From positions 558,001-622,000 of the forward strand of contig NZ_CP047942.1 of the NCBI RefSeq assembly GCF_014279835.1: a DNA stretch of 64,000 bases. Reading direction: 5' to 3'. Shown here in pieces: positions 35,706 to 39,216 of this stretch. Within the stretch, counting starts at the first letter, position 1. The number at the start of each line of letters is the position of its first letter. Made by a program: the position numbers and the translations under genes. Source of the DNA: Synechococcus sp. MVIR-18-1 (lineage in GTDB: Bacteria > Cyanobacteriota > Cyanobacteriia > PCC-6307 > Cyanobiaceae). The notes beneath the pieces are model-generated. The model made no database searches. It was not told the DNA's origin and was given only the letters and a program-made list of their open reading frames with translations.

Positions 35706-37121
35706 TTAGCAGCGCTCCCAAGGTCGCTCCCACAAAGCGGCAGCTAAAGACAGTGCCGCAAGCACCCAGAGCACCGGGATCAAGCCGATGCTGCTTACCA
35801 GGGCGCCGGCAAGAACCAGGGGCAGGCTGAGAGCAATATTGATCAGGTTGTTCTGAAGCCCGAAGACCCGACCTCGCTGGGACTCTGGAGTGTCTTCCTG
35901 AATCGTGGTCTGAGCCGGAATCGCGACGAGAGCTGCACCAATGCCGAGGATGCCGCACAACACCAAGGTGATGCTGAGATTTCCGCGCAGTTGTCCGAGC
36001 ATGATTAGACACCAGGTGATCGCGCCCAGTCCGGCTGCGGCGAGTCGCCGACGGCTAAAGCGATGGCCCATTTGAGCCACCAGCACAGCGCCAATGGCCA
36101 TCCCTAGGCCGCTCATCGCTAGCAGGGTGCCGAAGCCTGTTGGCCCAAGCCCTTGGATGGCTGATGCCAGGCTGATCGCCAGGACATATAGCGCTGCTAA
36201 GAGGCTGTAAAGCACCACGAGATGCACCATGGCTCCCCGGACGGAAGCCTGCTCTCGAAGCACCTGTATCCCCGCCACGATTTCTTTCCAAACCGAATCG
36301 CTGCTGTCTTTTCTCGGTGGTTCGTGCATCTGGATGGTGCTCAGACTGATGGCCGCCATGCCGTAACAGAACGGCAAAAGCAGAAATTCGCCACCGTTGA
36401 TGCCCACCATTTGAAGCAGGTGATTTAGTCCTCGCAGAATTGGATCGCCTAAGGCAAAGCCAACGATCGTGGCCCCCATGCTCGTGGCTTGATAGAGGGA
36501 ATTGGCGGCTAGAAGATGTTCTCTTGGTACCAGCAGTGGGATCGTCGCCTGTTCAGCGGGGGCGAAAAACTGGGTCAGAACCGACTCCAGAAAGGTCATG
36601 ACCAGCAGAGCCCAATATCCCCAGCTCAGACCAAACCAGTGAGGGCCAGGGATAAGGAATAGAGGGGTGCACAGCACAAGCAGGGCCCGCAGGCCATTGG
36701 AGGCCACCATCACCCTGCGTTTAGGCCAGCGGTCGACCCAGACACCGGCAACGGATCCGAGCACCATCGCTGGGATGGTGTTGGCCACGTAGATGCCGGT
36801 AGCCAGCAAGGTGATGCGTTGGGCTCGCGTCTCGAAATCCATGCGAATCGCAGAGGCGATTTCAGCAAGCGCGCCATTGCTGTCCGGTGTATTGGTCACC
36901 CAGTACTGGGCGATCAGATACACCATCAACACGATGTAGAACTTGTCCGCGAGTTGGGAGAAGATCTGTCCGACCCAAAGGCGTCGGAAGCCATCGAGAT
37001 GGATCACGGCTTGAAGGCCGCGGCGACCTTCTGGATTGGCGCTGGTGGGCAGGGCCGGGTCCGGGCTATTTAGGGGGGGACCGCTCAAAATGGGTTCATT
37101 CGCGGAATCATGATCGCCCAC
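35706..37121 (-). CDS. MFS permease
   Basis: A 471-residue major-facilitator protein with about 12 hydrophobic helices. It carries the DRWPKRRVMVASN loop (motif A type, after helix 2) and RGRVFGLQNN near the second half, as in drug or lysophospholipid exporters of the MFS_3/Enterobactin-exporter type. Substrate unknown. Its start overlaps the recO stop region by 14 nt and it leads into the GT4 gene, so an export role with that enzyme is possible but unproven. Confidence 0.85.
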   Translation of the reverse strand: MGDHDSANEPILSGPPLNSPDPALPTSANPEGRRGLQAVIHLDGFRRLWVGQIFSQLADKFYIVLMVYLIAQYWVTNTPDSNGALAEIASAIRMDFETRAQRITLLATGIYVANTIPAMVLGSVAGVWVDRWPKRRVMVASNGLRALLVLCTPLFLIPGPHWFGLSWGYWALLVMTFLESVLTQFFAPAEQATIPLLVPREHLLAANSLYQATSMGATIVGFALGDPILRGLNHLLQMVGINGGEFLLLPFCYGMAAISLSTIQMHEPPRKDSSDSVWKEIVAGIQVLREQASVRGAMVHLVVLYSLLAALYVLAISLASAIQGLGPTGFGTLLAMSGLGMAIGAVLVAQMGHRFSRRRLAAAGLGAITWCLIMLGQLRGNLSITLVLCGILGIGAALVAIPAQTTIQEDTPESQRGRVFGLQNNLINIALSLPLVLAGALVSSIGLIPVLWVLAALSLAAALWERPWERC

Positions 37122-37941
37122 CGCAGGCCGTAGCGTGAACAGCCTCTCTCACCATGGCAAACGAGCGCACGGGCCTTGGGAGATGCACGCGGCACCAGCA
37201 CTCCACAAGCGTGAATAGGCGGAGCCAAACCGGTCTGGGTCCCATCAATCCACCGTCTTGGCGTTGCGGTAATTCAAGCCGCGTTAACCGCTGAAGCAGA
37301 GCGAGTTCGGACGGGTTGATCTGAATGGCTGCTCCAGCTTGAGCCCCGATGGCCAGACCTTCCTCGGCCAGCAGGCTGCAGCGCCAGTCCCAATGTCCGA
37401 TCGGTGGAGCCAGGGCGGCTCCACTGCGGCAACAGGTTTGGAGTGGGAGGCCATAACCGCCGAGAGCGAGCAGATGAACGCAGGCCTGAACAAGGGTTGC
37501 CAAAGTTCGATCAACACGCTCGCCTTCAGCGCTTCCAAGCTCGGATTCACGCTGCCTTCGGGCCAGCAGCTCGAGACGCTCGAGATGCATCAAAACCGCA
37601 CTGAGCATCCCTGGTACGGGATCATCGCCAGCGACCAATGCGATCGAGAGCTCCGATAGGGCCTGGGCGGCTGCCAACGTTTCCAATCGCTGCCCCACCT
37701 TGCCGAAATTGTGTTGGACCCGAAGTTGGCGTACCCGAAGCAGGCCGCTGCGTCCTCCCACCTGCAGTTCCAGGGTGGTGAGAGGAACCGCCGCCGCCAG
37801 GCTGCTGCGTGGTTTACGTGCCCCTGGTACGGCCAGGCGAATCAGCCCTACGTCATCACTCAGCAGGGTGAGCAGCCTGTCGTGCTCTCCGAGGGGGCCA
37901 ACCTTTAAAGCCAATCCTTCGATCCGCCGTTCCGGGCTCAT
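37108..37941 (-). CDS. recO: DNA repair protein RecO
   Basis: Recombination mediator that loads RecA with RecF/RecR. The 277-residue protein begins SPERRIEGLALKVGPLGEHD with the OB fold (LLTLLSDDVGLIRLAVPGARKP) and continues with a helical domain that in many members binds zinc (LQTCCRSGAALAP region). ATG 37939-37941 overlaps the deoC TGA by 4 nt (ATGA). A 42-codon upstream extension was rejected because it runs inside deoC. Confidence 0.9.
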   Translation of the reverse strand: MSPERRIEGLALKVGPLGEHDRLLTLLSDDVGLIRLAVPGARKPRSSLAAAVPLTTLELQVGGRSGLLRVRQLRVQHNFGKVGQRLETLAAAQALSELSIALVAGDDPVPGMLSAVLMHLERLELLARRQRESELGSAEGERVDRTLATLVQACVHLLALGGYGLPLQTCCRSGAALAPPIGHWDWRCSLLAEEGLAIGAQAGAAIQINPSELALLQRLTRLELPQRQDGGLMGPRPVWLRLFTLVECWCRVHLPRPVRSFAMVREAVHATACGGRS

Positions 37942-38618
37942 TGCGGATGCCGGAGGGCCTGAATTAACGCTGGACCATGGCTGGTTCCCAGGGCCGTGGC
38001 GCCCTCTTCCACAAGGTCCAGCGCCGTTTCCAAGCGTTGAATCCCCCCGGCCGCTTTGATCGCGCAATTCCCCCTTGCAAGCTCTTTGAGCTTGCGCACT
38101 TGCAGCGGAGTGGTGGCCGCTCCAAATCCGTTGCCGGCTTGTAAGAACGCAGCACCGGCATCGATCGCGGCTTCTACCGCCAAGCTCAGGCGCTCTGGCT
38201 GCAAGCGGTTCACATCCAAAATCACCGTCACAGGTAGGCCGAGATCGCAGATCTGCGCGAGTTCTTCCGCATAGGCTTCCGCCCGCCCCGCCGTGATGGC
38301 AGCGAGATTGGGCACGACATCGAGGGCATCAGCCCCTCGGGCTGCGGCCCATTCCGCTTGCGCCCGTTTCAGCTCCGCTGGAATCGTTCCGAAGGGGAAG
38401 TCCACAACAGCAAACAAGCGAAGACGCCCGCTTGGTCCAATGCGGTTGCGCACCGCTTCTAGGTGGCAGAGGCTGGTGCAGAGCCCCCCGAAGCCGAGCA
38501 GTCGGGCTGCATCACAGATGTTGTGCAGAGCTTCTTCTTCTAGGAGTGGATCTAAAACGGCTTGATGAATCAAGGGCGGGAGCTCTGGAAGCTCCCGCTG
38601 ACGCGGCGACGCGGTCAT
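37938..38618 (-). CDS. deoC: DeoC-like aldolase lacking the Schiff-base lysine
   Basis: By overall similarity a deoxyribose-phosphate aldolase, 226 residues, TIM barrel. The early Asp is kept (ALDVVPNLAAI, Asp100, equal to E. coli Asp102) and the second Lys is kept (CAIKAAGGIQRLE, Lys188, equal to Lys201). But the Schiff-base Lys (E. coli Lys167, in FIKTSTG) is replaced by Gln160 (AFLQAGNGFG). Without it the normal aldolase mechanism cannot run, so it is either inactive or works differently. It is co-transcribed with recO by a 4-nt overlap and follows lrtA by 22 nt. Confidence 0.85.
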   Translation of the reverse strand: MTASPRQRELPELPPLIHQAVLDPLLEEEALHNICDAARLLGFGGLCTSLCHLEAVRNRIGPSGRLRLFAVVDFPFGTIPAELKRAQAEWAAARGADALDVVPNLAAITAGRAEAYAEELAQICDLGLPVTVILDVNRLQPERLSLAVEAAIDAGAAFLQAGNGFGAATTPLQVRKLKELARGNCAIKAAGGIQRLETALDLVEEGATALGTSHGPALIQALRHPQ

Positions 38619-38640: not shown

Positions 38641-39216
38641 TTAGTTCCGCGCTTGGATCACGCCAAACCCACCGTGATTGCGGTGATAAATCACCTGGAG
38701 TTCACCGCTTTCCTCATCTCGAAACAGGTAGAAGTCGTGGTCGATCACTTCAAGCTGATGGCGCGCCTCTTCAAGGCTCATCGCTGGCATGGCGAAGTAT
38801 TTGCGCCGAACCCCTGGGCTGGGAAGCTGCGCTTCTTTGCCTTCGAGCAGTGAGTCTTCTGTAGCGCGTTCCGTGAGCAGCACATCATTCGCTGCTGTTG
38901 GGGTGGTCCGATGGCCATTGTCGCTGTGGCGTTCCTTGAACCGTCGCAGCTGCCGCGCCAACTTATTGGCGACCAGATCGATGCTGGCGTAGAGGTTTTC
39001 GCTTCTTTCCTGGGCGCGAATCACCGTGCCATTGGCAAACACAGTGACTTCTGCGGTTTGTTGCGGAACCCTGGGGTTCCGAGCCACTGACAGGTGCACG
39101 TCCGCTTCCTTGACGAGGTCGTCGAAGTGATGGATGGCCCGTTCCAGTTTTGTTTCGGTGTATTCCCGCAGTGCGGGCGTCACATCCAAATTGCGACCAT
39201 GGATCAGAAGCTTCAT
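38641..39216 (-). CDS. lrtA: Long-form ribosome hibernation promoting factor (LrtA/HPF)
   Basis: Binds the 30S decoding site and pairs ribosomes as 100S dimers in the dark or under starvation; known in cyanobacteria as light-repressed LrtA. The 191-residue protein has an N-terminal HPF/YfiA domain ([20 protein letters not shown] to [10 protein letters not shown]) and the C-terminal dimerisation domain ([40 protein letters not shown]). It is divergent from lipB. Confidence 0.94.

Follow-up and report, generated by a model that had tools for sequence, protein, structure and literature searches.

A DeoC homologue without the Schiff-base lysine beside recO in marine Synechococcus and Prochlorococcus

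The window analysed here, a stretch of 64,000 nucleotides from Synechococcus sp. MVIR-18-1 (family Cyanobiaceae), contains a deoC homologue that lies between the genes for a ribosome hibernation factor and for RecO. The genes and the codons of the positions discussed below are as follows:

38641-39216, minus strand: lrtA/hpf ribosome hibernation factor (Pfam S30AE), ending 22 bp upstream of deoC
37938-38618, minus strand: open reading frame of the lysine-less (Gln-type) deoC homologue, 226 amino acids
38565-38567, minus strand: His18 codon, aligned with D16 (Asp or Glu in all Lys types sampled)
38319-38321, minus strand: codon for Asp100, the Asp102 equivalent (Asp in 77/89 and Glu in 12 members of the Gln clade)
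38139-38141, minus strand: codon CAA for Gln160, at the position of the Schiff-base Lys167 of E. coli DeoC
38130-38132, minus strand: Asn163 codon, aligned with T170 (86/89 Gln-clade members have Asn here, nearly all Lys types Ser or Thr)
38055-38057, minus strand: codon for Lys188, the Lys201 equivalent, kept in 86/89 of the Gln clade
37108-37941, minus strand: recO (Pfam RecO_N and RecO_C), with a likely ATG at 37941-37939, the choice of start being inferred

The deoC homologue starts with the ATG at 38618 and ends with the stop codon at 37938-37940, exactly the frame, strand and coordinates given by the first-pass annotation, and the Pfam domains identify its flanks as the recO and lrtA genes named there. 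The putative recO ATG overlaps the deoC stop codon as ATGA. With hpf, deoC and recO on one strand, a 22 bp gap between the first two and this overlap between the others, the genes are probably expressed as an operon.

In the class I deoxyribose-phosphate aldolase (DERA) of E. coli, Lys167 is the covalent residue and Asp102 and Lys201 act in proton transfer (PMC8403123). A profile alignment with E. coli K-12 DeoC pairs Q160 with K167, D100 with D102, K188 with K201, N163 with T170, H18 with D16 and C47 with C47, bearing out the first three equivalences as originally proposed. The proton-transfer pair is present as Asp100 and Lys188, and the Schiff-base lysine is absent, its position being taken by Gln160 within the motif GAAFLQAGNGFG. 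Further replacements add to the one first noticed: D16 is replaced by His, E141 by Asp and T170 by Asn, and the His at position 19 by Gln. The protein shares with class I DERA (DeoC, EC 4.1.2.4, TIGR00126) the fold, the Asp102 and Lys201 equivalents and, at the putative phosphate end, GG and GTS motifs, and differs from it in the replacements at Lys167, D16, T170 and E141, in a score below the equivalog cutoff and in its location outside any deo operon. Within the Gln clade, among the candidate counterparts of the phosphate-binding glycines and serine (G171, G204 and S238 region), G164, G191, G192, G211 and T212 are invariant and S213 occurs in 73/89 members, the C-terminal serines being matched by motif and not by the E. 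coli alignment.

The fold assignment is firm. The closest PDB sequence match is the Thermus thermophilus aldolase (1j2w/1ub3, 2.6e-27), which shares 36% identity over the structural alignment, and the AlphaFold2 model (pLDDT 94) is a DERA-type (beta/alpha)8 barrel whose best structural matches are DERAs, with a VIA Z of 33.2 and an rmsd of 1.5 over 215 residues against Bacillus halodurans DERA (6msw/6d33) and a Z of 32 against 1ub3. The structural matches also include the designed Kemp eliminase KE70 (3npu and relatives), a DERA barrel built on the E. coli scaffold and given another job; it is man-made, and its comparison with the Gln160 protein concerns the fold. The TIGR00126 score (111.5 bits) falls just below the cutoff of 117.3, which is itself no test of the lysine, since the lysine-less DeoC of S. 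elongatus (212 bits) and a Gln-type orthologue (L007, 127.5 bits) both pass it. Neither PF01791 nor TIGR00126 detected a second, Lys-bearing DeoC in the genome; PF01791 is insensitive here, missing the Gln160 protein and scoring a Lys-bearing sister at no more than 17.8 bits, and the negative result therefore depends mainly on TIGR00126.

An orthologue is present in 131/131 good-quality genomes of the family, strongly streamlined ones included. We compared 182 distinct DeoC sequences, SAG and MAG sequences among them: 89 with Gln, 56 with Lys and one with Ile within the family, six highly divergent ones with Gln, and 30 from high-scoring cyanobacteria outside the family, all with Lys. The first-pass annotation had asked whether Gln is fixed across Synechococcus and Prochlorococcus, and it is: at the Lys167 position it occurs in 89/89 distinct clade members (among the named records, Synechococcus WH7803 and many Prochlorococcus single-cell genomes) and in 6/6 highly divergent orthologues. 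The lone exception is the Ile (ATA) of one complete genome (L035 of G003). Lys is kept in 56/56 sister sequences, from Cyanobium, Vulcanococcus and Synechococcus WH 5701. A lysine in close relatives combined with a sequencing error had been named as what would undo the observation; relatives do have the lysine, yet the same Gln recurs in dozens of independently sequenced genomes and is encoded by both CAA and CAG. Sequence, profile and structure matches also concur on the residue, so that error or misalignment retains a negligible probability. No virus-borne copies of the deoC homologue were confirmed in IMG/VR. A picocyanobacterial deoC locus turned up in a record titled as a Bifidobacterium breve MAG (L197), a mislabelled or contaminated bin.

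In a family tree built without the trait columns, the Gln types, the divergent genus g18 and the Ile-bearing sequence form one clade (SH-aLRT 99, a support obtained from quick searches). The swap from Lys to Gln thus has one origin, at the base of the marine Synechococcus/Prochlorococcus clade. We take the Lys-type L083 to be RCC307; if this is right, the swap is later than the split of the RCC307 lineage. Positions conserved, or nearly so, in both groups with different residues are, from Lys to Gln type, H19Q, S50L, V72I, E135D, K160Q, S163N and A185C: the swap came together with the change of Ser/Thr170 to Asn and with other changes in the pocket. Asp at position 18 remains in 16/89 of the Gln clade, and its loss is therefore variable and probably later. 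Gln160 is among the 18 zero-entropy sites, and the pocket, a set defined from E. coli residues through a review and the alignment rather than measured on coordinates, has an entropy of 0.65 bits as compared with 1.65 bits elsewhere, a value as low being found in 0/20000 random site sets. The g18 sequences (L088-L093), from what are presumably high-light Prochlorococcus (MED4, MIT 9301), are very divergent (25-28% identity, branch length over 4); they have a FQFGDGFG motif and Ser at Cys47, and keep the hpf-deoC-recO order. In some Lys167-bearing members of the family the catalytic set is eroded further, Gln (L075, L190, L200) or Met (L073) standing in place of the Lys201 equivalent.

The lysine has also been lost in other cyanobacteria. 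Among 122 DeoC sequences from outside the family, a sample of deliberately picked lower-scoring cyanobacterial proteins plus diverse others, 112 have Lys, four Gln and six Met. The Gln sequences come from two S. elongatus-type genomes and from two genomes of genus g113, in which one other sampled member still has Lys; K167M is found in genus g62, in each of the six members sampled (L207, L240, L246, L249, L251 and L252), which presumably include Synechococcus JA-2-3B'a and JA-3-3Ab. The S. elongatus-type DeoC (L260, positions 1462-2253, and L219) combines K167Q with D102N and K201H, keeping Glu at the D16 position and T170; one of the genomes (G227) was identified as S. elongatus by its KaiA, identical to PDB 5n8y at 283/284 residues. 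Without any of the three catalytic residues, this protein still receives an automatic aldolase name from TIGR00126. The gene tree needs four losses of Lys. AU tests rejected a single origin of all Lys-less sequences (p 7.4e-6) and a grouping of the marine clade with S. elongatus (p 4.4e-4); a grouping of S. elongatus with the Met type was not rejected (p 0.28), although their differing residues (Gln versus Met) speak against it. It is safest to count three losses. At least two to three losses come on top of the one in the marine clade. The losses in S. elongatus and in g62 are each independent of that in the marine clade, and the DeoC proteins of both (L260, L246) resemble the marine form in combining a lost lysine with recO adjacency and strong selection.

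The protein could have become a new enzyme that acts on a phosphosugar without forming a Schiff base, by an isomerisation, elimination or lyase reaction, with Lys188 and Asp100 in acid-base roles and Gln160 and Asn163 as hydrogen-bonders of the ligand. This is the main rival to the reading that we favour, and we think it rather unlikely. The seven positions that are differently conserved, or nearly so, between the Gln and Lys groups speak for it, as do the presence of Lys188 in 86/89 and 6/6 divergent members and the fact that the pocket is the most conserved region; against it, Lys188 is replaced by Gln or Thr in three clade members, and S. elongatus has neither equivalent of the pair, which would therefore not be essential if the role is shared. 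The same residues bear on the idea that Lys188, on the next strand, took over as the Schiff-base lysine and that the protein is still an aldolase. KDPG aldolase would provide a precedent for such a relocation, a Lys-to-Gln change plus a new lysine, which our search of the open-licence literature did not recover. Lys188 and Asp100 are indeed largely conserved in the Gln clade; however, the explanation fails in the three members without Lys188 and is inapplicable to S. elongatus, and in E. coli DERA the covalent role is that of Lys167 and Lys201 transfers protons (PMC8403123). A relocated imine is thus improbable.

Pairwise NG86 estimates, which are crude, give dN/dS values of 0.196 for the Gln clade, 0.18 for g18 and 0.31 for the Lys-type sisters. 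The S. elongatus pair has 0.055, the Met genus g62 0.05-0.09 and the g113 pair 0.09, as compared with 0.03-0.10 in Lys-bearing controls. Lysine removal was thus not accompanied by relaxed selection, dN/dS being about that of Lys-bearing lineages. This bears on whether the gene is a jobless relic that is drifting away, as might be imagined from the higher divergence of the Gln clade, from the very long branch of the high-light-type Prochlorococcus and from the report that deoC, although conserved, is non-essential in S. elongatus PCC 7942 (PMC5464585). A relic would hardly be kept in all good-quality family genomes down to the streamlined ones, with Gln160 invariant, dN/dS far below 1 and no internal stop codon among the matches listed, and even a divergent member still folds confidently as a DERA-type barrel (pLDDT 91.8, Z 28). 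We consider decay very improbable.

Lys and Gln types share the order lipB-hpf-deoC-recO and, in most cases, the transporter gene downstream of it, so that we are dealing with the same gene and not with a paralogue or an import; the Lys-bearing orthologues thus identified (Cyanobium, WH 5701 and others) keep Lys167 and Ser/Thr170. Outside the family, within the fetched flanks, recO adjoins deoC on the same strand in 10/10 Lys-less genomes versus 67/109 Lys-bearing ones, counts that are not phylogenetically corrected and include five genomes with RecO confirmed by Pfam. The suggestion that the protein is linked to recO or lrtA is therefore strengthened in its first part, recO lying beside deoC in every Lys-less lineage examined, and unsupported in its second, because lrtA adjacency holds in the family for Lys and Gln types alike and is not specific to the loss. 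The persistent neighbour suggests a role in DNA repair or in the handling of deoxyribose fragments, although function is poorly predicted by gene neighbourhood and the Lys-less genomes do not count as independent of one another. The open-licence literature yielded no paper on what deoC does in cyanobacteria, on a DeoC lacking this lysine or on an operon of deoC with recO. The phosphopentomutase gene deoB was over the cutoff in 0/44 cyanobacteria, of Lys and Gln types alike; the canonical deoxynucleoside route is therefore absent and neither type of DeoC belongs to the classical deo route. Gain or loss of a nucleoside route was considered as a cause of the Lys loss and rejected: both types have the PNP_UDP_1 family and lack deoB, so the pathway does not distinguish them.

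The Gln160 protein is most probably neither a class I DERA nor the product of a decaying gene, and it is not a sequencing error. The loss of class I chemistry claimed in the first-pass annotation agrees with the published chemistry of Lys167, as a DeoC fold without the Schiff-base lysine cannot use this mechanism (PMC8403123); its description as a non-aldolase draws on the same chemistry, and the interpretation as a whole, which included a possible regulator, is partly supported. With the lysine lost, yet the protein and its recO adjacency kept by selection, the role is probably other than the name says. The protein is most likely a pseudo-aldolase whose phosphosugar-type pocket has been kept for a role that needs no Schiff base and may be tied to RecO. 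We put at somewhat better than even the chances that the recO-side cyanobacterial DeoC orthologue gave up class I aldolase chemistry while keeping its barrel, most of its phosphate-binding pocket and strong selection. Cyanobacterial DeoC would have a role that does not depend on the imine, most likely binding a phosphorylated sugar or a ligand derived from nucleotides, or acting on it by non-covalent chemistry of a very limited kind. On the simplest view this independence of the imine may be either original or acquired, the pocket remaining under selection. The lysine would have been lost where cleavage of deoxyribose 5-phosphate became dispensable, and in marine picocyanobacteria the pocket would then have been refitted with the Gln/Asn amide pair. 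Some pocket residues drift (D18, E135 and, in the divergent clade, C47), a pattern equally compatible with a changed and with a shared ligand. More tentatively, and on the unlikely side of our estimates, an undescribed Schiff-base-independent DeoC function partnered with RecO may be older than the Lys losses, the aldolase activity having been dispensable and given up on three or more occasions, and the marine form may be a dedicated ligand-binding or repair-associated protein.

Equivalog models name the S. elongatus form a deoxyribose-phosphate aldolase though its lysine, aspartate and second lysine are gone, and a metabolic model that relies on this name may therefore include a reaction that is absent from the cell. 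Recurrent loss of the lysine under undiminished selection offers a natural experiment on a function that outlasts the removal of a catalytic residue. Few phototrophs are as abundant as marine Synechococcus and Prochlorococcus, and since the deoC homologue is kept in every good-quality genome of the family searched, its real role would be part of their very small core metabolism.
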